Positions 48,351-64,000 of a stretch of 64,000 nt of DNA are shown here, piece by piece; positions within the stretch are counted from its first letter, which is position 1, and the number at the start of each line of letters is the position of its first letter. Source of the DNA: Paraescarpia echinospica (taxonomy: Eukaryota; Annelida; Polychaeta; Sabellida; Siboglinidae); assembly GCA_020002185.1 (NCBI GenBank), contig CM034531.1, positions 75,930,445-75,994,444 of the forward strand, written 5' to 3'. A program made the position numbers and the translations under genes. Below the pieces are notes generated by a model that did no database searches, had not been told where the DNA came from, and saw only the letters and a program-made list of their open reading frames with translations.

Positions 48351-50005
48351 AATTTGCGTGCCGTCTGCTAAAGATATTGCACCTCCTCGCAGGACGGTTT
48401 ACCGGACTGGAAGTACGTTTTGGTCTGATAGTAAGTTCCGGTTCCTTTTTTTGCGTAATACGCATGCGGGTGTACATGCCAAAGGTTAGTGATTACTTTC
48501 GGCCCGCTTAAAGTATACGTGACCTATTTTTATTATAGTTTTGCATATATGGGGCTGACATTTTGTATGCAGTCTAGGAGGCCCATTGGGGTGGTTCCAA
48601 ATTCGTACTGAGTATAGGAATCTTGGGGTCACCATTTCCAAAAAAATTCCCACCCCAATTCCGGGTAACTCGGCTATTTTTTAATAATACATTTATGGAA
48701 ACGAGTCATGCAATCACGAATTACATAAGTGAAATGTATTATCATATCAACGTGTATAATTAGGTGTGACATAACAGTTCAAATAGTATTATTAAATAAA
48801 ATGTAAAATGCAAACAATTTTTTTTATTCATTTACACATATCAAAACCACGTAGCTCTTTGTATAATACTTCAATGTTTACAACAACAAAATTCTACACA
48901 TATGGTCTGTTATAACATTCAATCAGACAAGTGATCAAATCCAATTATTCAGCTATGGTCACGCGCAGATGTACGCTCGGTGTTCAATACCTTAGGGGAG
49001 CATATAGGTCAGTGGAGTAACGGTCGCTACAGCAAACAAAAATGTTTTATTATGTAACTCAGTCGCCGCGCGCGTCGAGCAAGGGATCAAAGTTGATCGG
49101 CCACTTGATGTCACGTTGCTCACAGCTGTGTACTGCGCTTGCGCGAGCATGCACAATGTGCAAAAACGGAACCGAATTTACTTTCAAACTGGAACTTACT
49201 TCCAGACAGGTACAACGGATCTCAGAACAAAGTTGCATCTTTCGCACGCATATCCGGGAAGTTAGTTTTGAATGCCGTTTGGCATTGACGCCTGGTACGT
49301 GAGTTTGCGTAAGTTGCCCTGTAGTTATTACCACAATGTCTTTATCAACTTCACGATGACTGTTTGTATTCTAACGTCAAGACTTAGCCTTTTACTACCA
49401 TTTCTCGACGAATTTTCGAGACTTCTCCTTATAGGCTACTATGTTATAAAAGAGGCACTCGTGCAGATGCCTTGTTAAAAGCAAACTTTCTCTTGATTTT
49501 GCATCTTTGGGTAGTAAAGGTCTAACAAAATTAGGGTGGCAAGTACTCTAAGTAGGATAAGTTTACCAAATTCAAGATGGCCGTCCATCATGTAAATTGC
49601 GCCAATTTTCCATTAAAATGGGATTTTAAATAATTCCTTATATGTTTATAATGGTGTCTGGTGCGCTTACCAATGACAATACCCATTTATATTAATATGT
49701 GTGTCTCTTAGAAACATGTGAGCGCTAGTGGAGGTCGACCATTTTGAATTTCAAAATGACTGTCACAAAAATGGGAATTAGGGGAATTACTTACTGCCGA
49801 CTGTGCTGTCATGTTCTATCAATAGTTTAATTTTACTAATAATAATGTGTGTTCGCAAAATATTTTATCATCGTTAAATAAATTTGAAAAAACCAAGACG
49901 TTTATCAGTCAATGTATTCTTTACATTAAATACGTTATATAGGTTGGACTGATTGTCGTGGTAGCAACATTGATGTATCTGTGAAACAATTAAGCCTAAT
50001 TTAAT
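48351..50005. other. no gene seen
   Basis: AT-rich intergenic sequence without recognisable domains. Confidence 0.5.
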
Positions 50006-50009
50006 TATT

Positions 50010-50975
50010 ATAATAACAATAATACGAAGAATGTAACTTGTATTGCGCCTAAATCCTTGGAAACCAAGCTCAGAGGCGCATCAACATAAAAGAATTGGTC
50101 AATCTCAAAATCCATATGCGGTATTCCAGTTTTAATCAGATGGGTCAATGCGCTAGGGAGCTGTGGTGGATAAGCAAGGTTGTAAAGATAGGTTTTTAAA
50201 TGATGACGGAACTTTGTAATATGTTCAACTGATCTAACACTGAGAAGGTGCATATTCCAAAGAGTTGGTGCAGCAACAGAAAAAGCCAATGTTAGAGTTG
50301 ACTGTAGGAACAAAAAAGTAGGTCAGAACTAGATGATCGAAGCTGGATAGGTTTTCTTACAGGAGTAAGCAGTGGATGCAAATAAGATGATTACTTAGTG
50401 GACAGTGCATGGTATATAATGGTACAGATCTTAAATATTATACGATATCGTAAAGGAACCCAATGCAAAAACTTCAAATGTGGTACAGAGCGAAAAAAAA
50501 CCGAGGAGATCTTGTAACTACCCTTGCCAGACAATTCTGGACACGTTGACGTTTTGTAATATCCTTGCTAGCGAGAGTATAGAGGATGGAATTGCAATAG
50601 TCAAGACTGCTGCTAACAAGCGCTGTTGCAATAGTTTTAGCAACAGAAAATAACATACCGGCGAATACGGCGAAGATCACGAATTTGATAAAAAAAACAG
50701 CAGCGACACGTTTGAGATATGTGTTGTCGGAAATTGAAGTTACTATCAAAGATCACTCAAAGATTCCGCACTGAGGTTGCTGACGTGATATGCTGATTGA
50801 AAATACGCGTAAATAAAAAACCATCACGTTTACGACGTTGCATTGGAGTACCAATAATAATCAATTCAGTTTTATTTGCATTTAATTTCAACTTGCTGTC
50901 AGTCATCCATTGGACGATATCTTGAAGGCAATCACAGACGTGATTCACCAATCTTATGTTGACAATATACCACAA
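50010..50975 (-). mobile_element. L2/CR1-type LINE, copy B
   Basis: Minus-strand copy of the family at the window's left end. It shares blocks such as DCLQDIxxWMTDSKLxLNAN, GTPMQRxKxDGF, SLVSKDLGAI and the final ttaggcgcaata(t/c)aagtt. It is 5'-truncated inside the RT domain at about 50,975 and frameshifted. Confidence 0.85.
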
Positions 50976-51024
50976 ACATATTGTAACTTAACTGTAGCAT
51001 ATCAAATCCGTCTTATTCCAAACG

Positions 51025-52455
51025 TAGAACTCAGTAAATTTCACTCTTTTGACAGTAGAACTCAACAAATTTCACTCTTTTGACAGTAGAACTCAGCACA
51101 TTTCACTCTTTCCACAGTAGAACTCAGTAAATTTCACTCTTTTGACAGTAGAACTCAACAAATTTCACTCTTCTGACAGTAGAACTCAGTAAATGTAACT
51201 CTTTTGACAGTAGAACTCAACACATTTCACTCTTTTGACTGTAGAACTCAACAAATTTCACTCTTTTGACAGTGGAACACAGTAAATTTCATTCATTCGG
51301 CATAACATTCCGCCAGGTGGAACTATTTCCACAAGGAGGTCGGTCCCGTGACAGGCTAATTCCCCCTCAGCAGCAGACACTAGCTCCTTCACTTTCCGCC
51401 AGGTGGCTCCACTACTTATACTTCTTTCCTCCAGGGGGTAGGTCACGTGGAGACGGGCGCCATCTTAGAATTTCCCCATGGGTGCCCCCGCCCAGAGTGA
51501 TGTATATCGGCAGACTCAGGTGACAAGGATGGGTGTAAGCGTGAGAACGTGTGGACGGAGGGGGGTGTGGCTACGTGTGACCAATGACTATACACGGTTG
51601 TATGTGAATGACATGTCAGCCGAGTCAGATAGACTTGTGACCTTAGAAAAATATACAGTGCATGCATGCATGCGCATGTGTCTAAGGTACCTGAACAAAT
51701 TTCACTTTTTTGACAGAACTCACAAAATTTCACTCTTTCCACAGTAGAACTCAGCAAATTTAACTCTTTTGACAATAGAACTCAGCAACGTTCACTCTTT
51801 TAACAGTAGAACTAAACGAATTTCACTCTTTTGACCGTAAAACTCAGCATATGTCACTCTTTCCACAGTAGAACTCAGTAAATGTCACTCTTTTGACAGC
51901 AGAACTCAACAAATTTCACTCTTCTGACAGTAGACCTAAGTAAATTTCACTCTTTTGATAGTAGAACTCAAGAAATTTCACTCTTTGACAGTCAACTCAC
52001 CAAATTTCACTCTTTTGACCGTAGAACACAGTAACTTTCACTCTTTTGACATAACATTCCGCCAGGTGGCATTACTTCCACAAGGAAGTCGGTCACGTGA
52101 CAGTCTAATTCCCCCTCAGCAGCAGACACTAGCTCCTCCAGTTTCCCCCAGGTGGCTCCACTACTTACACTTCTTTCCTCCAGGGGGTAGATCACGTGGA
52201 GACGGGCGCCATCTTAGAATTTCCCCATGGGTGTCCCCCGCCCATAGTGATATATATCAGCAGACTCAGGTAAAAGGGATGGGTGTAAGCGTGAGAACGT
52301 GTGGACGGAGGGGGGTGTGGCTACGTGTGACCAATGACTATACACGGTTGTATGTGAGTGACATGTCAGCAGACTCAGGTAGACGTGTGACCTTAGAGAC
52401 ATATACAGTGCATGCATACATGCATGCGCATGTGTCTAAGGTACCTGAACAAATT
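51025..52455. repeat. compound repeat: 31-bp array and a duplicated 390-bp unit
   Basis: Nine 31-bp units (gtagaactca(g/a)...tttcactcttttgaca) at 51,025-51,303 are followed by a 390-bp unique unit at 51,304-51,690. About twelve more 31-bp units follow to 52,060, then a second copy of the 390-bp unit at 52,060-52,450, over 90% identical by eye. It lies at the left edge of the Polinton-like region and may be part of its end. ORFs in the unit are short and repeat in both copies. Confidence 0.85.
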
Positions 52456-52879
52456 TCACTCTTTCCGTGGCGGCGAGGGCAGGGGCGGGGGCGGGGGCAG
52501 CGACGGCGGCTCCCGCAGAGTTTCTTAGCGGGTGCGTCCATGTGTGTGTAAGGGTAGGACGTGTTGGTGGACGGCTAATGAACTTCTCTTATCGGATATA
52601 TCATCGTTTGTGCGTGCGTGTGCATATAAAAAACGAACAAAACACGCTAATATACGAGTGTACACATATTTTATTAACCAAAGACACTAGCGGTGACATT
52701 ATAACAGATGGGACTTGTGGGTGTTTACCACCATGATGATGTCACGTGTACTACTACAGCACATAGACAACACACCGCACTACACTAAATAGACAACACA
52801 CCTCTCTACAGCACATACACATTACACCCCTCTAAAGCACATATGCAACACACATCACTACAAAGTAGAGAATATACAT

Positions 52880-52952
52880 ATATATATAGACATACATACA
52901 TACATACATACACACACTTGCATGCATACATACACACATGCATGCATGCACG

Positions 52953-53020
<68 letters not shown>

Positions 53021-53022
53021 TA
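52880..53022. repeat. CATA/CA microsatellite
   Basis: Mixed (CATA)n and (CA)n tracts with CATG interruptions. Confidence 0.9.
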
Positions 53023-53069
53023 AGTAGTGATACCGGTTCTTCCAACACCGGTCATGACCCCAGATCAAA

Positions 53070-53640
53070 GGCTTTTGCGTTTTTTATAAGTAGAATTCCT
53101 ACGTTTTTTAGCACTAGAGATGAGAGTAAACGTCAAAAGTGATTGATGGGTATCCTTAGAAAGAGAGTGGCGCCCTCTAGTAACTGATAAGGGAAATAAA
53201 TGGCTTTTGCGTTTTTTATAAGTAGAATTCATACGTTTTTTAGCGGGTGATTGTCGACCTCTAGTGACTAATCAGGTACTAATTAGGTAAAAAGTAGGGT
53301 AATTAATTAATCCTACGTTTTTTAGCACTAGAGATGAGATTTAGCACTAGGGAGGAGAGTAAACGTCAAAGTGATTGATGGGTTTCCTTAGAAAGAGGGT
53401 GGCGCTTGCGTTTTTTATAAGTAGAATTTCTAAGGTTTTTAGCACTAGAGATGAGAGTAAACGTCAAAAGTGATTGATGGGTTTCCTTAGAAAGAGGGTG
53501 GCGCCCTCTAGTAACTAATGAGGCACTAATAAGGGAAATAAATAGGGTGATTGTCGACCTCTAGTGACTAATCAGGTACTAATTAGGTAAAAAGTAGGGT
53601 AATTAATTAAGTACTAATTAGTAACAAATGAGTAGCGCAA
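53070..53640. repeat. interleaved tandem repeats of about 125 bp
   Basis: Three to four partial copies of a unit containing ttttataagtagaatt, gcactagagatgagagtaaacgtc and ggcgccctctagtaac. They alternate with a second unit ending in gggtaattaattaa (two copies, about 53,250 and 53,560). Likely noncoding end structure of the adjoining element. Confidence 0.75.
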
Positions 53641-53649
53641 TTATTGGAG

Positions 53650-54310
53650 GAGAACGGTAGCAATAACTAAAAATAGTAAATATCGACTAAAAGTATTAAT
53701 TAGGTGTACGGGGGAGGTGGGAAAGATTTTAGAGTGAAGTTGCGTCCCTGGGGATCAGCGAGGTTAATATCATGACGCGCGGGAAGGTTCTAGAACCTTC
53801 TAGCCTGGTGCGGTGGCGGGGGCTGGGGATCATCGAGGTTAATCGGCCGGCTTAGATTACGCCCGGCGCGCTGGAGATCAGGAGGGCAATCGAGTGGCCT
53901 GGTTTTCACGACTCACTGGTGAATGGGGGTTTCGTATGTCAGGCTGTTTGAGTTTATGTGCGTTGTTTGTCGGAAGGCGGGTTAAATGTTTTATTTCGTG
54001 TCGCATAGGCGCGCATGTATTAAGGTTGTGGCGCTGCTGTGGGTATTGGCTGTCAGTGCTGGCTGCGGTACAGCTGATGTTTGGTAACAGCTGATACGCG
54101 TGCATCGGCGGTGCAATATCGTTATAGCAGCTGGAGGCCGGAGCTGTCAGATTGGCCTGTGCGCGTGTATTAAGCTTGTGGCTTTTGGCGACCGCTGGTG
54201 TTTGGTGTTGCAACGACGAATAGGTGGAAATATAGGCATTATTCGTGTGTGAGTTGGAATGCTGGTGGAATACGAAACGAAACACAGAAACAGCAATAAA
54301 CGGTGAGAAA
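53650..54310. other. GC-rich flank, no gene recognised
   Basis: A 135-aa minus-strand ORF (53,878-54,285) is open but has no motif I recognise. It lies downstream of the poly(A) signals of the spliced gene to its right. Confidence 0.4.
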
Positions 54311-54315
54311 TAAAT

Positions 54316-54341
54316 TTTATTGGTATACAGATGAATTTATT
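54316..54341 (-). terminator. two poly(A) signals for the minus-strand spliced gene
   Basis: AATAAA on the minus strand at 54,336-54,341 and 54,316-54,321, about 27 and 47 nt past the stop at 54,368. They support a real transcript ending here. Confidence 0.6.
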
Positions 54342-54367
54342 ATGAAGACGGAGGCGACGGAAAGGGG

Positions 54368-54854
54368 TCATGGGGGTCGGGTGGGGGTGGGCCAAAGCCG
54401 TGCCGTCCGGGTGGCTGTGGAGGATAGCCTAAATGAACGGAGATGGGCTGGGATGGGTGGCGAAAATGAGGGGAGGAGAATTTGAGGACGTGGAAAGATG
54501 TCAGCAAATGAGAAGGGTTGTGTGAAAGTCTCTTCTGGTTGGGGGGTGTCTGCAGCTAGAAATTGTAAATCGGGGGTGCCACTGTAGCCGTCGTCGAAGT
54601 TTTCTTCTGTGTCGTGTTGTTGTTCGCTGTAATCGGGGGTGCCACTGTAGCCGTCGTCGAAGTTTTCTTCTGTGTCGTGTTGTTGTTGTTGTTGTTGTCG
54701 TCGCGGCTCGACGGCTAAGAGGGGGCGGTGGTGGCGTGGTGACGATGCGAAGCTGATTGGGTGAGGGGCAGGTCCGACGAAGTGTATCACGACGCCCCGT
54801 CCGATGGCGTATCGTCGATGGGTTAGGCCAGGGGCGATCACGAAGAGGTGTCTG
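54368..54854 (-). CDS. alternative terminal exon E of the unrecognised Polinton gene
   Basis: Acceptor cttttcctccccacag, then 162 codons to the stop at 54,368, phase-matched to constant exon 2. Near its start: HLFVIAPGLTH, then AIGRGVVIHFVGP. The H-x5-G-x-G-x-VIH-(F/L) spacing resembles the N-terminal H-box of LRAT/HRASLS-type (NlpC/P60) acyltransferases. The matching catalytic NCEHF motif is absent, so any enzyme activity is unproven. Further on is a poly-Gln run and a tandem duplication (HDTEENFDDGYSGTPD occurs twice), then a Pro/Arg-rich tail. The first dozen residues resemble those of exon D. Confidence 0.55.
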
Positions 54855-54871
54855 CTGTGGGGAGGAAAAGT

Positions 54872-55010
54872 TCAATTATCGTCGGGGAGGCGACTACTGG
54901 CGCGCGGGGCTCGCCCTGCCGGGTGGCCATTTCGATGAGTGTGGTTGGCAAGGGTTTGTCCCATAAGGAGCCGATTGACTAGTTCGGGCGCCACGATCAA
55001 TAGGCGATAT
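54872..55010 (-). CDS. alternative terminal exon D of the unrecognised Polinton gene
   Basis: Acceptor ctttttccttctccacag at 55,011; open for 46 codons to a TGA at 54,872, in the phase set by exon 2. It encodes YRLLIVAPELVNRLLMG, similar to exon E's HLFVIAPGLTHRRYAIG. GQTLANHTHRNG follows, similar to exon C's GQTLARPSHRNG. It therefore looks like a duplicated, diverged relative of its neighbours. The stop falls 18 nt before the next acceptor. Confidence 0.55.
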
Positions 55011-55030
55011 CTGTGGAGAAGGAAAAAGTG

Positions 55031-55238
55031 TTAAGGGGCGGTAGTGTGACGTGGTCGGCGACGTCCAAGGTACAATGTGGCCCCAGGCCTATCGGCGCGC
55101 GGCCTTCTATCAATCATAATCAGATCGCCTGGGCTCAAATTTATTCTAGATCTATTAATGAAGCCGTTTCGGTGCGAGGGCCTCGCAAGGGTTTGCCCGC
55201 GCCCTATATGCAGTGTATCGAAGCCGGCGATGTTTCGT
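55031..55238 (-). CDS. alternative terminal exon C of the unrecognised Polinton gene
   Basis: Acceptor cttttttcatacttgcag; 69 codons to a TAA at 55,031, correct phase. It contains IGRGQTLARPSHRNG and SPGDLIMIDRRP...ATLYLG. The PGDLI-x-I(D/F)R start resembles the opening of LRAT/HRASLS domains, though the catalytic His expected after it is not present. An Arg-rich C-terminus follows. Function unknown. Confidence 0.55.
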
Positions 55239-55258
55239 CTGCAAGTATGAAAAAAGTA

Positions 55259-55373
55259 TTAAAGTAACGGCGCGTCTCTTTTTAGGTGGGGGCCCTGTAA
55301 AAAAAGCATTAAGTCTGTAGCGGGGCGCACGGAAAAGCAGCTATAGGCTTTATCAAAAGTCCGTAATAGGCGT
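55259..55373 (-). CDS. alternative terminal exon A of the unrecognised Polinton gene
   Basis: Acceptor tttacattcatttgcag; 38 codons to a TAA at 55,259, in phase. RLLRTFDKAYSCFSVRP has no recognised domain. A further acceptor (gctttttttacag, exon start 55,294) lies inside it; it would add only four codons before a stop. Confidence 0.45.
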
Positions 55374-55430
55374 CTGCAAATGAATGTAAATTAAAAAAAA
55401 GTGCTATTTAGTTAGTATCGTTAAACGTAC

Positions 55431-55565
55431 CTTTCGCCGGGGCGGTGTTGGGGTGGGGGTAGACGCATAGGTGGCGGCGGAACAGCACTATTCCCGGCGG
55501 CTTGGGGAGGCGTATTCCCGGCGACATGGGGAGCCCCAATCCCTGCGTTTTGGGGAGGTAGCTCG
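55431..55565 (-). CDS. constant exon 2 of the unrecognised Polinton gene
   Basis: 135 nt with acceptor ctattttttacag and donor AAAG|GTACGT, phase 2 on both sides. Encodes a Pro/Gly/Ala-rich disordered stretch with three imperfect repeats of about 11 residues (PPQ-AG-) ending PPPQHRPGER. It sets the phase for every downstream acceptor. Confidence 0.6.
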
Positions 55566-55659
55566 CTGTAAAAAATAGTTAGTTAGTTAGTAAACGTTAT
55601 AAAAGAAAGCAGTAATGTGAGTGAGGAAAGTCAGTGTTAGTTGAGTTAGCAAAACGTAC

Positions 55660-55796
55660 CTGGTTTGTGGTTGTTGAGAATCGGCCGCATAATTGCGAAC
55701 TTGGTCGGTCGGCTCCATAGTGAGAAATGAATTGCGCAGTTGTTGCGCCGTTGTTTTGCGCGCGGTAACGTGTAGCGGCCTAGACACGTACGCCAT
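55660..55796 (-). CDS. constant exon 1 of the unrecognised Polinton gene
   Basis: ATG at 55,796, 45 codons plus two bases, donor CCAG|GTACGT, identical in its first six intron bases to the exon 2 donor. Basic N-terminus (MAYVSRPLHVTARKTTAQQ), then MEPTDQVRNYAADSQQ. No domain recognised. The start is only about 30 nt from a TATA box. Confidence 0.6.
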
Positions 55797-55813
55797 AGCT
55801 TTACATAAGGGGC

Positions 55814-55832
55814 TGACGTCACTGTTTATATA
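55814..55832 (-). promoter_or_regulatory. TATA box and CRE palindrome for the minus-strand gene
   Basis: TATATAA on the minus strand at 55,826-55,832, 30 nt upstream of the ATG at 55,796. A perfect TGACGTCA (CREB/ATF-type palindrome) sits at 55,814-55,821 between the TATA box and the start codon. Confidence 0.55.
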
Positions 55833-56093
55833 ACGCGCTTATGTAACTGTTTGTAAGTGTTTAAAACGACCGTTAAAGGTGAAATGTGAGCAAACTAAGC
55901 GGCCTATAATAGTCAGTGGGGTCTAGAGAATCTTATGGTAACTTTATATTAGGAAATAAAAGAGGCGTTCTGTTAGTGCACTAGGCTGACCGAGAGATTT
56001 CTTTCAGTTTTAGTAACCTTGTAAGAGTCGGCTGCTTTGCGGCTCGCGTGCGCTCGCTCACGGGGGCCGCGTGCGGGCCGCGTGCAAAGCGCT

Positions 56094-56099
56094 TATATA
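56094..56099 (+). promoter_or_regulatory. TATA box for the RPA-like gene
   Basis: TATATA preceded by GC-rich sequence, about 90 nt upstream of the preferred ATG at 56,188. With the minus-strand TATA at 55.83 kb it forms a divergent promoter region of about 270 bp. Confidence 0.55.
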
Positions 56100-56187
56100 G
56101 GGGGCTGGGTGGAGAACGTCTATGTATCGTCGCTGTGGTGTTGTTTACCGTTGCAGTAACTTTGTGTGTTGCAGAGCGTTGTTGATC

Positions 56188-56838
56188 ATGTCGCCGCCGG
56201 TCGCTCACGGAGAGGCGCCGCCAAAGAAGGGCAGCAAGCTGAGGGAGGTGCCAACGGTGGCGTCTGGTGGCAAAACGAAACCTGCCTCGGAGGCCAGCGC
56301 GAAGGCGCTTCCGACGGCCGACGTGGCGCCTACTTTCGAGGCCGTGGTGAGCGCGTCCGAGGTATCGTTGAAAGAGTTCGTGCTAGCGTGCGATGGCACG
56401 TATAAGATTGTTACGCCCGTAACAATCGTTGGCGTGGCTTGGAAAAGTAAATGCACGTACATCGGCTGTGGCGTTTGCAAGCGCAAAGTGAGAGGTCTTG
56501 AAAGCGGTGGCCGGGTGTGCGCTGTACACGGTATGCAGGCAAAGGCGAAGACGTATTTTTCGGTGCGCGTCTTGGTGGAAGACGAAAAGGACGCCGACAC
56601 TGAGGCCGGCATTTGGATCACCCTGTTCGACGAAGCGATTTCGGCGATCGGCGATTACAATGCCGATCATGTGTCAGGCCTGTTGCCCGACCAGTTGCGC
56701 AGTAGCTTTGTGGCGAGCCTGATTGGCACAGTCTTGGAGCTGACCGTGCACAAGGTCGTGTGGGGTGGCATACTGGACACGTATACGGTCCGTGAGGCGC
56801 GGGTCGTGTCGAAAAAGGCGAGCGAGCCCGGCGTGTAA
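56188..56838 (+). CDS. RPA-like OB-fold/zinc single-stranded-DNA-binding protein
   Basis: 216 aa from the Met at 56,188 (an upstream in-frame Met at 56,122 would add 22 unlikely Cys-rich residues). Residues 1-60 are Lys/Ala/Pro-rich and probably disordered. Residues 70-205 resemble the C-terminal DNA-binding domain of replication protein A 70: KCTYIGCGVCKRKV then RVCAVHG give a C94-x2-C97-x13-C111-x2-H114 zinc site. YFSVRVLVEDE and WITLFDEAISAIGDYNADHV match the RPA strands and helix after it. It probably coats single-stranded DNA during replication of the element. A GTAAGT donor overlaps its stop codon (56,835-56,840). RPA-like genes are known from Helitrons; I do not know of them as standard Polinton genes. 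Confidence 0.65.
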   Translation: MSPPVAHGEAPPKKGSKLREVPTVASGGKTKPASEASAKALPTADVAPTFEAVVSASEVSLKEFVLACDGTYKIVTPVTIVGVAWKSKCTYIGCGVCKRKVRGLESGGRVCAVHGMQAKAKTYFSVRVLVEDEKDADTEAGIWITLFDEAISAIGDYNADHVSGLLPDQLRSSFVASLIGTVLELTVHKVVWGGILDTYTVREARVVSKKASEPGV

Positions 56839-56932
56839 GTTTGAATGACTAACGTTTGGCTAGTGTTCTGTAGGCCGTTGTAATTGCTGCTTTGGTTATT
56901 GTTCTGTAGGACGCTGTAATTGCTGCTGCGTT
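56835..56932 (+). repeat. 36-bp tandem duplication carrying two splice-acceptor-like sites
   Basis: ttctgtagg(c/a)cg(t/c)tgtaattgctgct occurs twice (about 56,866 and 56,902). A GTAAGT at 56,835 and a tgactaac branch-like word at 56,847 precede them, so an intron of 39 or 75 nt is possible. Confidence 0.5.
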
Positions 56933-57056
56933 GCGCGGAATTATCGACGCTGCTGACGAGTGCGCACCCCCTGCCGAGAAGTGCGCTTAGAAGGAAACGA
57001 CGACGCCACGCTTCGCTGGCGCCAACGACCCTCCACCGCTGGCGAGAGAAGAAGGG

Positions 57057-57797
57057 ATGTCGTACTGGCCTGAGGCGGAAGACACGCAGCCCATGCCACC
57101 GCACGGGCCGGTGAGCGACGCCGCGACGCCCACGTACGTTGCATTAACCCCGGTGGTGGTGGTGTCGACAGCCGAAGCAGCAGCAGCCGTGCCATTAACC
57201 CCGGCGGCGACAGCGGAAGCAGCAGCCGTGCCATCGTCGCCACTGCCGCTGGACGTGTTGTCGGTTTCGTCGGAGGACTTCATTCCGTGGGCCCGCAACA
57301 AACGCCCTGTGATCGTGGGCACGATTCAGGCCGACTCGGAATGGAGCGTTCTGCACTTGTACGCCGGTCGGCAGCGCTGTATGATGGCCACGTTTGCCGA
57401 GCTAATCGGCGAGCGCGTGATGGACACCGCGCGCCAAGAATGTGGTGAGTGCCCCCCCGAAGAGGGGTGCCCCTTCGTTCACATGTGCGGCTACAGGGGA
57501 AGGAAGCCGAGCCGGCGGTACAACATTCTGTACGAAAACGTGGCGGCCCTGAATGTGTGCTTTTTTTCAACATCACTCGACAGCTTTCTACAGCAGACGT
57601 TGTTGCTCCACGCTATTCGTATACTCTCGGTACTGGAGGAGCGTTGCGTGCGCGGCGATCGCGCTTCGGAGGGCTCCCTCATGCGCCAGATGGCCGACTG
57701 GCTCATGGGGACGGATTGGACGGCGCCGTTCGACCGTGCGCTGTTGGAGGTCGCCGTGCAGTATTACCTGTTGAAAAGGGCATGCCTCGACGTCTGA
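57057..57797 (+). CDS. unrecognised protein with CCCH-like zinc-finger cluster
   Basis: 246 aa, open from the Met at 57,057. Residues 1-65 are Ala/Pro/Val-rich with a duplicated (L/V)TPA-type segment (57,140-57,230). Residues 125-150 have QECGECPPEEGCPFVHMCGYRGRK. C132-x5-C138-x3-H142, with C129 just ahead, resembles the core of CCCH RNA-binding fingers, although the first spacing is short. Residues 165-246 look helical (FLQQTLLLHAIRILSVLEE). I recognise no family. It lies 220 bp downstream of the RPA-like gene, same strand, and likely shares its poly(A) site at 58,162. Confidence 0.6.
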   Translation: MSYWPEAEDTQPMPPHGPVSDAATPTYVALTPVVVVSTAEAAAAVPLTPAATAEAAAVPSSPLPLDVLSVSSEDFIPWARNKRPVIVGTIQADSEWSVLHLYAGRQRCMMATFAELIGERVMDTARQECGECPPEEGCPFVHMCGYRGRKPSRRYNILYENVAALNVCFFSTSLDSFLQQTLLLHAIRILSVLEERCVRGDRASEGSLMRQMADWLMGTDWTAPFDRALLEVAVQYYLLKRACLDV

Positions 57798-57799
57798 CG

Positions 57800-58160
57800 T
57801 ATTCTCCGCCGAACGCTTAATTTTTGCCTATGAACATTGCATTTCGCTATGGCATAAAGCCTTATTATTAGTAGTAGTAGATACGCCGATGAACATTAGC
57901 AGGAAATTGAATAGTAAAGCCGATGAACTTAATCGGGCGGCCTATAGTCCGCTGTTGCGCCCCTAAAGCGTTATTATTTATTCCGCTGTGGCATAAGCCC
58001 CCGCCGAACACTTAGTAGCGATGAACATTTTCATTTTGCTATAGGCCGTTGTTGGAGGCGCAAAGCCTTATTATTTACTCTGCTGTGGCATAAAGCTTCT
58101 TTACTGTTTACCGTGGCATAAAGCCATACTGTGGTGATGTAGTAGTAGTACGAGACTGCT
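57800..58160 (+). repeat. noncoding segment with degenerate tggcataaagc repeats
   Basis: tggcata(a)agc occurs five times and gatgaacatt three times in 360 bp, alternating with tattatta words. No ORF. Probably 3' UTR of the upstream transcript; structured RNA is possible. Confidence 0.6.
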
Positions 58161-58161
58161 T

Positions 58162-58167
58162 AATAAA
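58162..58167 (+). terminator. poly(A) signal of the RPA-like/CCCH transcription unit
   Basis: AATAAA at 58,162-58,167, after the repeat-rich 3' segment and before the polymerase remnant. Confidence 0.5.
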
Positions 58168-58370
58168 ACGTATGAAAACAAATCAATTCCCGCCTCCTGT
58201 TGTTGCCATCCAAAAAAAAACACGTTGCTGACATTCAATGCCTGTCCAACTGCTGCGCACAACAACAAAAACACTCCGGGAGCAGCTGACACCCGAAATT
58301 TCTACTACAAAACGTAAACAAAAACTTTGCCGCCGTATCCGGGCGCCGCTGACAGGCGAACCGGGAGCAG

Positions 58371-58994
58371 CTGACAGGCGAAATGCGCATGCTGGAGTTT
58401 TATTACGACTTCATCGCCGCCTACATTCCGCGCCCCCTGTTCCAGTACTGCGCGATGGACACGGACTCGGCGTTTTTGAGCCTCGCGGGGCGCCGACTCG
58501 ACGAGCTCGTGGCGGCGGCCAAGCGCGAACACTACTTTCGACACCGCGGCGAGTGGTTCCCGTCGGAACACTGCGACGCGCACGCGGAGGCGTACTTGCG
58601 GTGCCGGCTCGCCGGCCGAGCGTGGGACGCGCCCGACGAGTGTTGCGCGCGTCGGCGCCGGTACGACAAGCGAACGCCGGGCCTCTTCAAAGAGGAATGG
58701 TCCGGCCGCGGAATCGTCGCGCTCTGCAGCAAGACGTACTACTGTTTCGGCGGCGACGACGGCGGCGACAAGTACAGTACGAAGGGGCTGAGCAAGCGTC
58801 AGAACGACGTCGACAAGGAGGCCTTCCTCGACGTGCTGCGCCGCCAACGGAGCGGCGGCGGCCGGAACCGCGGCTTCCAAGTGAAGGAGTCGTCCGTGCT
58901 GACGTACGTTCAGGAGCGCGCGGCGTTGAGCTACTTCTACGCCAAACGGCGCGTGCTCGACGACGGCGTCACCACGGCGCCGATACTCGTATAA
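58371..58994 (+). pseudogene. PolB: protein-primed DNA polymerase B, C-terminal remnant
   Basis: About 204 codons of a polymerase that normally exceeds 1,000. The segment begins LTGEMRMLEFYYDF. It carries the catalytic motif C (AMDTDSAF), CCARRRRYDKRTPG, LCSKTYYCFG, the YSTKGLSKRQN box, and ends in RRVLDDG. All are typical of Polinton PolB C-termini. Upstream the frame is closed by a stop at about 58,350. The preceding 130 bp contain near-direct repeats of gcagctgacaggcgaa. The exonuclease domain, motif A and most of the palm are absent from the window, so it cannot be an active polymerase unless upstream exons lie elsewhere. The open C-terminus suggests recent truncation. Confidence 0.85.
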
Positions 58995-59095
58995 CGAGGG
59001 ACCTCCCTCCCTCCCTACCCCCTAGGGGTAGGGACCTACCTAGGGGTAGGGACCCCTACCTAGGGACCCCTAGGGACCTAGGGGACTATGTATGT
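58995..59095. repeat. CCTAGG-rich palindromic tract
   Basis: Runs of cccctaggggtaggga(c) words, self-complementary in several registers, between the PolB stop and its poly(A) signal. Confidence 0.7.
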
Positions 59096-59114
59096 ATGTA
59101 TGTGTGTATGCGTG

Positions 59115-59155
59115 CGAATAAAAATGCGAACACTCGGTACAGTTTTCATCGTTTA
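59115..59155. terminator. convergent poly(A) signals
   Basis: Plus-strand AATAAA at 59,115-59,120 (PolB unit) and minus-strand AATAAA at 59,150-59,155 (protease/capsid unit), only 30 nt apart and facing each other. Confidence 0.6.
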
Positions 59156-59326
59156 TTTAACTTCGGTAATAGCAAGCGATAGCGGTTTCGCAATAATAAT
59201 ACAACCTCACTACTTCGGTCTTGCCTGCCAAGCGCGGCCAGGAGCCCGCGACCAGCGGGTCCGACAAAGTCGGTTCGGATTCTCGGTCGTCTAATAATAA
59301 CAACAACAAGCGATAATAGGCAGCGT

Positions 59327-59776
59327 TCAATGAGGCTTTAGCCAGTCGAATACGAGACAGTCGTTGGCCACCCTATCGGGGCCGAACAGGCACTGGAAGC
59401 CGCTTAGCGGCTTTCCGCGGCACCGTAAGAGCAGGTAGGTGACGCAATATTGTCCGCACACGTTAGATACGCCGCTCTGCAGTCGCTTGTCGTTGTGCGT
59501 CCACGAGTCGCAGTTGCGGTTCAGGAAGTCGCAGAAGTCGGCGTGCAGCGGCGGACGGCCGTACGAATCGAAGTACTCGCCTCGCCGGTCGGCGCCCACG
59601 TAGACGGCCACCCAGTGCTCTCCCGGTTCGTCGCCGTCGTCGGTGTTGCACACGAACGCCGTCGGGTAGGCGGTGAGCCGCCGCCCCGGCAGCTCGTCTT
59701 TGGGCACGACGCCGAAGACGATGTTTTTAGTGTACGCGTCGATCGCCAGGCGACGCATCAGCTGAAACGTGTCCAT
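59327..59776 (-). CDS. PRO: adenain-like cysteine protease
   Basis: 149 aa. A C5/Ulp1-type maturation protease that cleaves virion precursor proteins. The active site is visible: His54 in GEHWVAVYV, Asp70 in EYFDSYG, Gln100 and Cys107 in SNVCGQYC. The Gln-to-Cys spacing of seven residues is the same as in adenovirus protease. The ORF is intact and near usual length. It starts one base after the PY stop codon, so the two are probably on one transcript ending at the AATAAA at 59,150-59,155. Confidence 0.88.
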   Translation of the reverse strand: MDTFQLMRRLAIDAYTKNIVFGVVPKDELPGRRLTAYPTAFVCNTDDGDEPGEHWVAVYVGADRRGEYFDSYGRPPLHADFCDFLNRNCDSWTHNDKRLQSGVSNVCGQYCVTYLLLRCRGKPLSGFQCLFGPDRVANDCLVFDWLKPH

Positions 59777-59777
59777 C

Positions 59778-61079
59778 TCAGAAGTCGTACACGACGTTCC
59801 GGTTCTTGTCGACTTCGAGCACCGTCTCGAACTCCCCGTACACGACGACGTTCACCGTCCGAGCGAGCGCGAGCGCGAAGTGGATCTCGGCGCGCAGTTT
59901 CCCTGTACGCACGACGTTGAAGTGTTCGCCGTCGCAGCAGTCGGGCGACAGGTCGAAGCCGAATATGGTGTAGCCGCTGCCGAACTCGCCGCGCGTCACA
60001 TCGAACCCCTCGTCCTCGTACGCCTTCCCCGTCGCGGCGAACAGGTTCATATAGCTTCGGATGTAGCGCCGATGCGCGAAGTCCGGCTGCAGCGGCTTTC
60101 TCGGCACCTGGCGTCCGTCGACGTAGAGGGCGAAGAAGTTTATGTCGTTGTGCTTCGCGTTGAACGGGTTTTTATCGTAGGACCCGTTGTAGGCGTCGTT
60201 GTCGATCAGGCACATGAACACGCGTCTCGGGAGCGTGCCCAGATAGACGTTCTCGTGCGTGTGCGACATCGTACCCTGCGGTATCGAGAACACCTTGCAG
60301 TCGACGCGGCGCATCGGATACTTGGCCGTCCCGTGCGTCAGCGCCTTGATATGGCCGGGCTGGACGACCGGGTTCAACTTGACCTTGCGCGCCTGCAGGT
60401 AGGCCTCCAGCAGATCGATCTTGAACCCCGGATCGACGACGTCGCCCATGAGCGTGAAGGCGTCCTTGCTTCGCACCAGTCGCATCTTCAGGTCGACGCC
60501 GTTCACCAGGCACCGGTTTTGCATGAGCACGTCGACGTGCAGGCGTCCTATCATGTCGAACTCGCGGCTATCGTGTACGAAATCGTGCCGATGCGCGAAC
60601 CCGCCGTTGTTGTTGTTGGTCGCCTCCATGCGCCCGGCGGTGTCCTTGCACCACAGGTCGGCCTCGAGCTGCGAGTTTTTGGCGTCGGGCCCGTAACTGA
60701 GCAGTGTCTCGAGGTAGGCCCGAAACGGGTACGTATTCGACGACGGCGTCACGAGCGTGCCGTTCAGCGTCACGTCGACCTGACTGAACATCGAATGCAG
60801 GAAATCGTTGACGGGCGCCACGACGCTGTCGTTCGCGAGCGCGGTACCGTCCCCCTTCACCACCTTGTCGCGCACGTACAGTCTAACGGACGACAGGTCC
60901 AGATAGTCGTCTCCGGAGCCCGGAATGAGAAACTCGATAGGGCCGCCAGCGTCGAGGGCCGTCAGCGGCTGGTGATCGATCCACTGGCCGCTCTCGATGC
61001 TCGTCTGCGTCGTCGGAACGCTGAACAGGTCCAGTTCGGACTTTACGCCCTCGCACGACTGCCGATGCACGAACGCCAT
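59778..61079 (-). CDS. PY: major capsid-type protein (F54H12.2-like)
   Basis: 433 aa, intact. Matches the family annotated in many invertebrate genomes as F54H12.2-like and treated as the Polinton PY / double jelly-roll major capsid protein. Signatures: LDLFSVPTTQTSIESGQW near the N-terminus, IEFLIPGSGDDYLDL, FLHSMFSQVDVTLNG, NTYPFRAYLETLLSYG and DLWCKDTAGRM. Capsid hexamer formation is the inferred role. The start Met at 61,079 follows a 150-bp gap holding a degenerate duplication of the core-protein tail. GC-rich throughout. Confidence 0.85.
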   Translation of the reverse strand: MAFVHRQSCEGVKSELDLFSVPTTQTSIESGQWIDHQPLTALDAGGPIEFLIPGSGDDYLDLSSVRLYVRDKVVKGDGTALANDSVVAPVNDFLHSMFSQVDVTLNGTLVTPSSNTYPFRAYLETLLSYGPDAKNSQLEADLWCKDTAGRMEATNNNNGGFAHRHDFVHDSREFDMIGRLHVDVLMQNRCLVNGVDLKMRLVRSKDAFTLMGDVVDPGFKIDLLEAYLQARKVKLNPVVQPGHIKALTHGTAKYPMRRVDCKVFSIPQGTMSHTHENVYLGTLPRRVFMCLIDNDAYNGSYDKNPFNAKHNDINFFALYVDGRQVPRKPLQPDFAHRRYIRSYMNLFAATGKAYEDEGFDVTRGEFGSGYTIFGFDLSPDCCDGEHFNVVRTGKLRAEIHFALALARTVNVVVYGEFETVLEVDKNRNVVYDF

Positions 61080-61082
61080 CCT

Positions 61083-61200
61083 ACGTCTGCTTCGTTCGAC
61101 GGCGCCTCCCCTTACTGTCCGGCGCCGCCTTGCCGGTCGGCTTTATGTATCGTCGCTTTTTTTCGTAGGCGCCCCCGACGAGAAGGGCGCCGAGGTAAAG
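61083..61200 (-). repeat. degenerate duplication of the core-protein gene 3' end
   Basis: ttcgacggcgcctc, ccttgccgg and ggctttatg(t/c)(a/g)tcgtcg words match 61,265-61,375 in the same order and strand. It looks like a tandem duplication of about 110 bp that has since decayed. Confidence 0.7.
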
Positions 61201-61233
61201 CTCTTTACGACTACCACCGATGCACTACTACTA

Positions 61234-61641
61234 CTACGCAGGAAATACGTCGTCGCTCGGCCTCTTTCGACGGCGCCTCTTCTTGCTGCCCGTCGCCGGC
61301 TTGCCGGGCGGCGGCTTTATGCGTCGTCGTCGCTTTTTCGGCGGCGGGGGCCTATTCAGCAGCCCGTCGAGAAGGTCGGCGCCCGCCTCCCTCGCGCGCC
61401 TCTTTACCGCCTGTTTCAGATTGCCGCCGGCGACGACGTCCTGCGCCACGCGCACGCCCGTCTTGAGCGCGCGCTTGCCCAGCGCCACGGCCCCTCTCTT
61501 GATAAGCGGCATGGCGCTTCGAAACAGGCTGCCGAAGAAATTACCCAGTCCGTGACCCCGCTGCGATCGGGCGCCTACGAACACCGGCAGGCCACCGCCG
61601 ACCTGCCGCGTGTAGTAGTCCTCGTACACGTTTCGCGTCAT
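61234..61641 (-). CDS. basic core-like virion protein
   Basis: 135 aa from the Met at 61,641, which follows the PX stop by two bases; a longer frame upstream overlaps PX and is not used. The N-terminus reads MTRNVYEDYYTRQVGGG. The segment GARSQRGHGLGNFFGSLF is typical of a conserved small Polinton protein. A short helix follows (AMPLIKRGAVALGKRA). The tail is very Lys/Arg/Pro-rich with KKRRRR clusters, suited to nucleic-acid packaging or nuclear import. The GG sites near residues 15-17 could be cleaved by PRO, by analogy to adenovirus core and pVI-type precursors. That is inference. Confidence 0.75.
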   Translation of the reverse strand: MTRNVYEDYYTRQVGGGLPVFVGARSQRGHGLGNFFGSLFRSAMPLIKRGAVALGKRALKTGVRVAQDVVAGGNLKQAVKRRAREAGADLLDGLLNRPPPPKKRRRRIKPPPGKPATGSKKRRRRKRPSDDVFPA

Positions 61642-61643
61642 CG

Positions 61644-62486
61644 TCAGAACAGTTTCGACTTGCGCCGTCGGACGTGAAGCGTCGTCACGCCTTTTCCGTT
61701 CTCGAATGGTATCGACTGACCGAGGTCGTCTCTTATATCTATCTCGATCGAATCGAATTGGCGCCGCAGGAACGGCGCGTATTGGAAGCGGTCGAAGATG
61801 TTCGATACGATGCTGCCGTTCAAACCGTGGACGGGGACGGCTCGGATGAGGGGGGCAAATACGTCGCCGACGATGCGCGTCTCCACGATGTCCGTGTACA
61901 CGAACAGGGTGTCGACGCCGCTTCTCAGGTCCACCGGGTGGCTCGCCTCGCACTCGAACAGGTACCCCGGGGGCAGGGAGCCGCCGTCCGCGGGCGACCC
62001 TTAACTCGCGATATAGTTCGACTCGAAGCCTAGTATCTGTTTCAGGCGCCCGTCCCGCGGCATGTTAATTTCGACGCCCGGCGATAGAAGCAACGTCATC
62101 CGATTAGTGATGGCGCTGTACACTATTCGCACCTTGACCGTGTCGGTGCTCAGTTTCGTCAACGCCTCGTTGATTTTGCGCATCAGCTTTTTGGCGTTGC
62201 TGTATAAGCCGTGCGGAATGTTGGCCTGCCGGGCAATTTTTCCCCCGTCCTCGGTGGTGAAAAAGCCCACCTCCCCCGTCTCGCACGCCACGAAGAAGTA
62301 GGAGTCCACCGGCCTCACACTGTACCAGCTATGCGTGTACTGTAGCGACACCAGCCCGCATTCCCACTCCCCCGACAGGTCGACGCGCTGCGGCAGATTC
62401 ATCGTGTAGTGCGTCAACGTGTTTTCGGGGTGCGCCTTCATAGACGCGTTGCTCGGCAACGTGACGTAAAAGTCAGACGACGCCAT
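61644..62486 (-). pseudogene. PX: minor capsid (penton-type) protein, interrupted by one stop codon
   Basis: 280 codons that stay in one frame except for a single TAA at 62,001-62,003. The N-terminal part (62,486-62,004) shows SDFYVTLPSNAS, NTLTHYTMNLPQ and GEWECGLVSLQYTHSWY. The C-terminal part (from 62,000 on) shows LFVYTDIVETRIVGD, APLIRAVP and FDSIEIDIRDDLG. Together they match the Polinton PX / single jelly-roll minor capsid family. The lesion makes this copy either dead or dependent on readthrough; the TAA-G context is not a known efficient readthrough site. It overlaps the membrane-protein gene upstream by 14 bp and abuts the core gene downstream. Confidence 0.8.
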
Positions 62487-62793
62487 CGCGTCTCATAGAC
62501 GGACTCGGCAGTAGGTAGCCGAGGCAACTACTCAGCAGCGCCGTCCACAGGTTGGAGTCACCCGTGCCGCGCGTTAGATTGTATATACTGACGACGATCA
62601 CCGTGTACAGGACGACGATCTGGCACAGGAAGACGATCTCGACCTTAGGGCATTCGTTGCCGCAGAGACGCCAAGGAACGCTCGTGACAGAGGAGGCGTC
62701 GACGGCATCGGGCGCACCCACAGAGACGCATGAGACGTCGGCGGGTGTAGCGACAAATGCGCTTGAGTCGACGGCGGTGGGCGGCTTCTGCAT
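62473..62793 (-). CDS. small membrane protein of Polinton structural block
   Basis: 106 aa. Residues 1-45 are Ser/Val/Ala-rich. CPKVEIVFLCQIVVLYTVIVVS is one transmembrane segment, with IYNLTRGTG after it and NLWTALLSSCLGYLLP as a second hydrophobic patch. This arrangement (ECPKVEIV...LLSSCLGYLLP) recurs next to PX and PY in invertebrate Polintons. Its function is unknown, possibly virion membrane association. The stop codon overlaps the PX start by 14 bp. Confidence 0.75.
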   Translation of the reverse strand: MQKPPTAVDSSAFVATPADVSCVSVGAPDAVDASSVTSVPWRLCGNECPKVEIVFLCQIVVLYTVIVVSIYNLTRGTGDSNLWTALLSSCLGYLLPSPSMRRDGVV

Positions 62794-62879
62794 TGGCTGC
62801 TACTGCTGCTGCTGCTGTCGTCTCGTCCGTACACATCGCGCTACTGCCGTCCGACGCTACGGCGTCGTTCCTTTATCCG

Positions 62880-63105
62880 TGCACCATAGAGCGAGTTCGT
62901 CGACGGGCGTGGGGGCGGCGCGGCCCTCTTCTCCTCTGCAGTCTACTAATACAGCACGGTCCCCTTATAAAAAAAAAACGAAAAGCCGTTGCACAGTCCC
63001 GCCTCGTGCAGTCGCCAGCACCCCGCGTGGCGCATCCAACGCGTCGTCATCCCTTATAGGTCGCGCAGATAAATCATAGAGCGAGTTCGCCGACGTTGCG
63101 GGCGA
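62880..63105. repeat. short duplication around tagagcgagttcg(t/c)cgacg
   Basis: The word occurs at about 62,888 and about 63,076 in the same orientation. Each is near a cttata-type TATA word (minus strand TATAAGGG at about 62,963 and about 63,053). A promoter-region duplication is possible. Confidence 0.45.
62965..62972 (-). promoter_or_regulatory. TATA box for the structural-gene transcript
   Basis: TTTATAAG on the minus strand, 170 bp upstream of the membrane-protein ATG, in the gap after the integrase stop codon. No other gap in the membrane-PX-core-PY-PRO run has a comparable site. Confidence 0.45.
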
Positions 63106-64000
63106 CGTCGATAGCATCGGTCGCAGCGACAACGGTAGCGGCGCCGGCCGTCGGAAGAAAGTCTCCAGCGCTCTGCGTATTCCGTCCAACATAGTCCGAT
63201 ATAGTTTGTCCTTCGCAACGATCACTTTTTGTAGCTCCGGCCCGTACAAGGTGCCGTCCAGTATCGTGCCGGCGTCGTCCATCAGTCGGTAAACAGGAGG
63301 GTCGGTCGGGTGCGAATCTACGACGGTGAAGAGCTCTTCGCTCCAGTTAGCCATGTACCCCTTCTTGAAGACGCCCTTCGCCTTGCTGATGCGTACGCGA
63401 TCCCTCGCTCGCAGTTTCGGTTTGCTTTTGTTTTTTTGACACCCTCCGCCGCCGTACAGACGCTGCCACACGCTCTCCTGATTCGACGCGTCGACGCTCG
63501 CCGGCGTCCTACCGATGCTTCGATGGTAGGTGTTGTTGTACGACCGCACGAAGTCCTGCAACGGCTCCAAGAACCTCAGCGTCTGATGCTTCGTGAAGTA
63601 CCTGCACATGCGCGTCTTCAGCGTACGATTGAATCGCTCCACGACGCTCGCCTTCGTCTCCTCGTTGTGCGTCACGAAATGGTGGACGCCGCGCGCCTTC
63701 AAAAGCGTCTGAAGGGGCCTCTTTTCAGAAACTCCGTCCCCTTGTCGGTCTGCAGGACGTGCGGCGACGATGACAGCAGCCCCTCGAAGGCCGCGACGAG
63801 CGCCGGACCGGATTTTCGCTTCAACGCAACGCACCACGCCCTCTTTGAGAAGACGTCGATGACCGTCAATAGGAACGGTATGCCGTCGTTGTGCTTTTTC
63901 AGTTTAGCCACGTCGACGAGATCGGCTTGCCACTGCTGGTTTCGACCGCCCACGATAACGCGACGTCGCTTAAATCGGCGCCTAACCGGCTTGTGAAGCG
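62965..64000 (-). pseudogene. INT: Polinton integrase, partial at window edge and frameshifted
   Basis: Retroviral-type DDE integrase on the minus strand; the frame is open at the window end. From the right: FKRRRVIVGGRNQQWQADLVDV (first catalytic Asp), SKRAWCVALKRKSG, VLQTDKGTEF (second Asp). After one frame change near 63,718-63,728 come THNEETKASVVERFNRTLK (catalytic Glu), FVRSYNNTYHRSIGRTPA, and the C-terminal binding domain (KGYMANWSEELFTVVD, YGPELQKV). The last about 60 residues are unconserved. The break (2-base gain or 1-base loss in the gaaaagagg run) makes this copy non-functional unless it is a sequencing error. It would splice element DNA into the host genome. Confidence 0.88.

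Follow-up and report, generated by a model that had tools for sequence, protein, structure and literature searches.

A Polinton-type element of Paraescarpia echinospica with a predicted unit of one coding leader and three competing 3' splice sites

Introduction

Can one short gene of a virus-like element give several proteins with a common N-terminus and interchangeable C-termini? This question is raised by a minus-strand gene in the 64,000-nucleotide stretch of the Paraescarpia echinospica genome that was analysed here (the window). A first-pass annotation of this DNA had described two constant exons followed by four phase-matched acceptors, and had proposed that the latter open alternative terminal exons, duplicated from one another, inside a Polinton-like element.

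Adenovirus E1A and polyomavirus T-antigen are small viral regulatory genes in which splicing gives a common N-terminus and different C-termini; they are not known to use a tandem array of terminal tails. The leader of the adenovirus L1 unit is untranslated, and its two proteins are not known to have a common N-terminus. Genes of the lola/mod(mdg4) type have alternative 3' exons that end separately, each at a poly(A) site of its own. The accessible part of the literature on Drosophila mod(mdg4) and lola describes common constitutive exons to which a single 3' exon out of many is spliced, with one N-terminus and swappable C-termini as the outcome; in mod(mdg4) the 3' exons are transcribed from independent promoters and attached by trans-splicing, according to the available text of one source (PMC12692577). 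For adenovirus L1 (52,55K and IIIa), in the major late transcription unit, the available text describes one 5' splice site that is joined to either of two 3' sites, which compete and between which the choice switches with time (PMC4346872). Adenoviruses and adintoviruses have been placed in one broader polinton-like consortium, and in the accessible portion of the same source virion protein isoforms with alternate C-terminal domains, made by non-standard translation, are raised as an idea (PMC11071296). Intact vertebrate Mavericks/Polintons are reported to be without introns, as stated in the part of the paper available (PMC8097293). Among the matches listed in a search of the literature on splicing, introns and isoforms in Polintons, Mavericks or adintoviruses, the text available describes no unit of the present kind. 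To our knowledge, the regulatory genes of these vertebrate Polintons are little known.

Here, we report a comparison of the array in the window with its sister copies in the host genome. We consider it probable that the array is a single spliced unit in which one donor chooses among the acceptors of three tails, D, E and F, in an adenovirus-like manner; a fourth segment, C, is treated separately.

Methods

Sister copies were searched for in the host genome (1.08 Gb, 3111 contigs). The DNA search gave 44 matches, 40 candidates were scored and 39 copies besides the window were aligned; 20 further copies from a protein search with tail D were added, which gave a 60-copy alignment with the window included. 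Eight additional copies stand outside the 60-copy counts. Six copies of a third lineage were read. The copies within one genome are related and partly decayed, and counts over them are therefore not independent events. Open frames and stop positions in the window were compared with 5000 dinucleotide shuffles per block.

Results

The right-hand part of the window carries a Polinton-type element, as judged by its capsid ORF. The array gene is the leftmost of the gene block; it is on the minus strand and divergent from a plus-strand ORF that starts at 56122. The annotation's placement of the array in such an element is supported. The ORF at 59778–61079(−) encodes a major capsid protein of the double jelly-roll type, which assigns the element to the Polinton/Maverick (adintovirus-like) class; of 8000 candidates scored against it, 2006 are homologues at E<=0.001, the best of them with 66% identity over 100% coverage. 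Pfam DJR-like_dom scored above its cut-off in one of four scanned capsid homologues, and the Pfam scan of the window's own capsid protein gave no match. The ORF at 62965–63837(−), which by its motifs looks like a retrovirus-like integrase, gave a weak rve_3 match below the curated Pfam cut-off (E = 0.04). From motifs we also assume that the ORF at 59327–59776(−) resembles an adenain-type protease and that at 58383–58994(+) a protein-primed DNA polymerase B; neither gave a match in the Pfam scan. An integrase and a polymerase are likely, though no more than likely, to be present in the element. Presumably the plus-strand polymerase-like ORFs (58238–59182) resemble the C-terminal end of PolB alone and, since only this end was recognized, the element copy appears to be internally deleted. 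A BLAST comparison for terminal inverted repeats, of 50001–64000 against 16 kb rightward with about 5 kb next to the window excluded, gave three short same-strand matches and no inverted ones. Rfam at gathering scores gave no match anywhere in the window. The neighbouring ORF at 56122–56838(+) has a weak match, below the cut-off, to the Pfam family Rep_fac-A_C (E = 0.043), which is of the single-strand DNA-binding type. Beyond the left end of the array gene, several short direct repeats can be seen by eye at 53000–53750, possibly part of the terminal region of the element.

The features of the array gene are collected in Table 1. Its two leader exons are as the annotation had read them: both leave phase 2 and are followed by the same donor sequence. 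Upstream, TATATAA is kept in 57 and TGACGTCA, which matches the CRE/ATF consensus, in 57 of the 59 alignment rows listed from the 60-copy set. The donor GT is intact in 58 of the 60 copies for exon 1 (the window included) and in 57, with three gaps, for exon 2, and the net length differs from that in the window by a multiple of three in 55 of 59 sisters for exon 1 and 58 of 59 for exon 2. Exon 1 holds two in-frame ATG codons, at 55796–55794 and at 55718–55716 (MEPTDQ...). The second is the likelier start codon, to judge from the copies, since the first is ACG in seven of 60 copies (with one gap) and in all six third-lineage copies, and the second is intact in 59 of 60; a pattern search found the second in five of the six third-lineage copies. 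Exon 2 gave no BLAST match in any of the three copies L064–L066 and, because this exon is symmetric, its absence leaves the phase intact.

Table 1. Features of the array gene in the window.
Feature	Position	Strand	Remarks
Core promoter (putative, by sequence)	55814..55832	-	TATATAA 55832-55826, then palindrome TGACGTCA 55821-55814
Leader exon 1	55660..55796	-	Donor GT 55659-55658, phase 2; followed by GTACGT
Leader exon 2	55431..55565	-	135 nt, symmetric phase 2-2, proline-rich; donor GT 55430-55429; followed by GTACGT
Segment C	55257..55373	-	Conserved acceptor, first exon base 55373; second acceptor-like site, first base 55294
Tail D	55031..55238	-	Acceptor first exon base 55238; 68 codons + TAA; Arg-rich basic, pI about 12
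Tail E	54872..55010	-	Acceptor first exon base 55010; 45 codons + TGA; GQTLA...HRNG block in common with D
Tail F	54368..54854	-	Acceptor first exon base 54854; frame open as found in the window; N-terminal part (54853-54695) basic, then a Q-rich run and an acidic/aromatic part
Poly(A) signals	54316..54341	-	AATAAA 54341-54336 and 54321-54316, then T/GT-rich stretch

All four acceptors open in the leader phase, and C, D, E and F read 37, 68, 45 and 161 codons before a stop, or 38, 69, 46 and 162 with the stop counted, exactly the figures of the annotation. The C, D and E stops end 20, 20 and 17 nt short of the base with which the following segment opens, close to the 18–25 nt that had been given. 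By shuffling, a first stop within the last 25 nt has P = 0.051 (C), 0.023 (D) and 0.064 (E), and an open run as long as that of F has P = 0.034; simply multiplied, these values come to about 2.5e-6 for all four segments and 5e-5 for D, E and F. The sister copies are stronger evidence for the array than the shuffles. The spacers are short pyrimidine tracts that end in CAG, and the stop contexts are invariant in the rows listed, with TTAAC in every one of the 56 rows listed for D and TTGAAC in every one of the 45 listed for E, out of 60 in each case; going by the consensus, we assume that both are branch-point-like. From 55430 onward, the exon 2 donor is the only donor-like site that scores >=7 and, as no other reaches this threshold, each tail would be terminal. 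The acceptor of F is a CAGCAG tandem (54854/54851) with both sites in phase, a choice that would add or drop one residue; the third-lineage copies in which the F acceptor was read have a single CAG instead.

The same layout is found in the related copies, as the annotation's reading would have it. The acceptor AG is kept in 60 of 60 copies for D, in 58 for E (mutated in the other two), in 59 for F (one gap) and in 58 for C (55375–55374). Protein searches of the genome gave at least 150 matches for each tail: 91–100% identity and 147 of 150 scored without an internal stop for D, 82–100% and 150 of 150 for E, and 68–100% and 147 of 150 for the first 53 codons of F. Relative to the window, the net length is a multiple of three in 59 of 59 sisters for D and 58 of 59 for E, as against 39 for intron 1, 12 for intron 2, 51 for the D–E spacer, 34 for the E–F spacer and 48 for the 3' flank. 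Among indels found in at least three copies, exons 1 and 2, D and E have eight multiples of three and no others, versus seven and 19 in the introns, C, both spacers and the 3' flank (hypergeometric P about 3.5e-4). When all distinct indels are counted, singletons included, the four exons have 22 multiples of three and eight others (five and three in E alone, two and four in exon 1), and the noncoding segments with C and the upstream stretch have 19 and 51; the eight frame-breaking indels are expected, as the copies are partly decayed. In the third lineage, D has 69 codons with the stop in five of six copies, the sixth being frame-shifted, and E has 46 in all six.

Tail F is less uniform. Its shared indels are 15 multiples of three and six others (44 and 21 with singletons), and its whole net length is a multiple of three in 32 of 59 sisters, because of repeats and frame changes near its end. 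The 162-codon frame of the annotation is open in the window, but towards its end the reading frame differs from that in most of the 39 sisters compared, and varied F ends occur; in most copies that read through to the common end, F has about 145–175 residues.

Conservation alone would not show that the tails are coding, since in the 60-copy set, within which pairwise dN/dS is noisier, the silent sites of D have likewise changed little, and good conservation extends to intron 1 and the upstream stretch. Between lineages, dN/dS in the leader phase was 0.24–0.39 for D, 0.19–0.45 for E and 0.24–0.70 for the first 37 codons of F, over 20 pairs of four third-lineage copies (L073, L074, L076 and L077) with five other copies, which share ancestry and are not independent. 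When eight of the 20 pairs were read in shifted frames, the values were 1.08–3.59 (D), 0.85–4.67 (E) and 0.71–5.64 (F), with five of 48 below 1. Silent and changing variants present in at least three of the 60 copies were also compared with the neutral expectation (P uncorrected, 21 frame tests per threshold): the silent:changing counts were 14:11 for D (P = 0.003), 11:10 for E (P = 0.018), 13:9 for a later part of F, read in the frame of that tail (row 'F2+2'; P = 0.0017), and 23:40 for the first 53 codons of F (P = 0.12, suggestive at most). At a five-copy threshold, the P values for D, E, the first 53 codons of F and later F were 0.003, 0.038, 0.060 and 0.034. The shifted frames of D and E had no deficit of changing variants in the 60 copies. 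As measured by these ratios and counts, purifying selection acts on all three tails in the leader phase, which is one of the two outcomes, purifying or diversifying, that the annotation had envisaged. The leader exons are near-neutral in the 60 copies (N/S 0.87 and 0.82, silent:changing 4:10 and 5:10), and their sequence is thus only weakly constrained, a point against the spliced-unit model.

Segment C departs from the four tails that had been proposed, of which D, E and F stand as coding. Its lengths modulo 3 are spread 17/23/19 over 59 sisters, with the frame of the window in 17 of them, and its end depends on a length-variable T tract, so that peptide and stop vary among copies. It is probably a splice-regulatory stretch or a lineage-specific short tail, as far as the copies indicate. 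Its common variants in the window phase are six silent to one changing in the 60 copies (P = 0.002); this is odd for noncoding sequence, and our three-tail model has no explanation for such variants and a conserved acceptor in a segment that lacks a conserved frame. We allow a modest chance that C is a fourth, lineage-specific tail and not regulatory, a reading that is compatible with the three-tail model. The acceptor, kept in most copies, and the silent bias, which is 3 S:1 N before the T tract, would fit such a tail, as would the window phase of that part in 41 of 60 rows; however, the other 19 rows are shifted there, the in-phase copies at a two-copy threshold have 4 S:3 N, the T tract sets where the peptide ends, and the six third-lineage copies read 30 codons (four copies) or 17 codons (two) of differing sequence.

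In a profile comparison, a block of 15 residues proved common to D and E (hhalign P = 1.9e-4), and the values for E–F (P = 0.039) and D–F (P = 0.095) are weak; of the duplicated cassettes that had been proposed, D and E thus remain, the one pair that clearly shares ancestry. For F, the profile comparison lends no support to an origin shared with D or E. By eye, copies L064 and L066 have an extra copy of the D end and the E acceptor inside E, and a deletion in L065 joins E to the acidic part of F. In L070 and L072 the array is rearranged, and additional F-type pieces lie next to a truncated exon 1. The array is, by the look of these copies, structurally unstable. L070 and L072 adjoin the same kind of tandem repeat and share the junction between truncated exon 1 and F-type sequence, from which a rearranged piece of the element seems to have been amplified together with its flanking repeats. 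Relics are what such rearrangements would lead one to expect, and D and E have only a short block in common, as might be the case if a single acceptor, that of F or of D, were normally used and the other tails were relics or decoys of old duplications. We consider this unlikely: between lineages D, E and F each have dN/dS well below 1 in the same phase, the frames of D and E are kept, and so are the acceptors. The altered E of L064–L066 does count against our preferred reading of one donor and three tails in use, as do the two copies with a mutated E acceptor.

The spacing of the tails separates splicing from continuous translation. In the window D, E and F lie in the same genomic frame (228 nt from D to E, 156 nt from E to F), and the E–D distance modulo 3 is 51/7/1, with one copy not located, so that 51 of the 59 copies located have E and D in one frame; both would suit one continuous frame with leaky stops, passed by read-through or reinitiation. 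This is very improbable, as the distance from the leader donor to D is random modulo 3 (23/16/21 of 60 copies) and that from F to E is 33/17/6 of 56 located (four not located), yet the D and E frames are kept, and the spacers are pyrimidine tracts ending in CAG. The acceptors, donors and frames are conserved, and the frames are held relative to the acceptors and not across the spacers; D and E keep frame with their own acceptors while the genomic spacing drifts, as would be expected of splicing to a fixed phase but not of read-through. A set of separate small genes, with a promoter or start codon for each, is just as hard to credit in spite of internal Met codons in D and E, for no tail has a start codon at its head, the conserved sequence starts right at the acceptor, and the acceptor AG and pyrimidine tracts are conserved.

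Searches with the tails gave no relatives outside the host genome. None of 131 candidates for tail F in the protein collection was at E<=1, and tail D had no candidate there; D, E and F had no match in PHROGs, and F had none in Pfam. The capsid protein and exon F had no confirmed relative among IMG/VR viral contigs, in a scan that reaches close relatives alone. Tail D contains 14 R+K in 68 residues and tail E six in 45, and the later part of F has 17 D+E and 11 aromatic residues in 75. Going by this composition, F could carry an activation-type region that is absent from D and E.

Discussion

We propose the following course of expression, on sequence grounds. The TATA promoter would give a pre-mRNA with a short, proline-rich leader, and the exon 2 donor (or the exon 1 donor, where exon 2 is skipped or missing) would be joined to the D, E or F acceptor. 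The three 3' splice sites would compete within the same final region, ahead of the poly(A) signals after F, which would serve all three tails; the second of these has an AATAAA-like match in 52 of 60 rows. Each choice would add a different C-terminal tail in the same phase: a strongly basic one of 68 residues (D), one of 45 (E), or one that is basic and then acidic/aromatic (F). Each stop codon is followed by the sequences that belong to the next acceptor, a branch-point-like one and a pyrimidine tract. As no donor-like site follows, no downstream splice junction would either, and the D or E stop need not trigger junction-dependent decay. We infer that the D, E and F acceptors may all be used in RNA and that their use may be regulated; the products would be regulators, for example an activator-like form with F and forms without the acidic part with D or E.

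Two checks that the first-pass annotation had suggested, on sister elements and on selection, support its core reading of a constant leader with several phase-matched terminal segments. Its alternative terminal exons need rewording. The terminal coding segments would be mutually exclusive, but they have no separate ends: all three run into the same final region, with the poly(A) signals placed after F, and for this reason they are better described as alternative 3' splice sites than as exons with ends of their own. One donor and several conserved acceptors are present at the sequence level. The array resembles adenovirus L1, as far as the available account of that unit goes, in that several 3' splice sites would compete for one 5' splice site within a compact unit of a dsDNA virus. 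Unlike L1, its leader is coding and common to three tails, and the likeness is one of layout. It resembles E1A and T-antigen in its common N-terminus and different C-termini, and differs from them in the tandem terminal tails. The vertebrate Mavericks/Polintons belong to the same class as the present element, for which the double jelly-roll capsid was identified; the array gene is predicted to be spliced, whereas theirs are intronless in the available part of the report on them.

The predicted spliced unit, with one N-terminus and three C-termini that are under selection, provides comparative evidence for a Polinton that, in the manner of adenoviruses, extends its coding capacity by means of the host spliceosome. 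There are at least 150 matches per tail, and a single genome thus offers a natural mutant library for the evolution of competing 3' splice sites and of stop-to-acceptor packing. More speculatively, and with rather little confidence, we suggest a Polinton family with an adenovirus-style regulatory unit, in which a coding leader is combined with interchangeable tails that evolve by duplicating, rearranging and diverging, D slowly and F fast. If so, the element could change the binding target of its regulator and leave the leader unchanged; should the unit be ancestral, terminal regulatory units would have been alternatively spliced before Polintons and adenoviruses split.

The arrangement also differs from that of mod(mdg4), in so far as the accessible text describes the latter: the array is one short unit in which about 150–230 nt separate the acceptors, and its poly(A) signals come after the last tail. 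A poly(A) site for each tail, as in genes of the lola/mod(mdg4) type, was not found; on reading the sequence, AATAAA occurs after F and once inside D. The latter copy lies within the coding sequence of the tail, at 55140–55145, and if it were used as a poly(A) signal the transcript would be cut without a stop codon.
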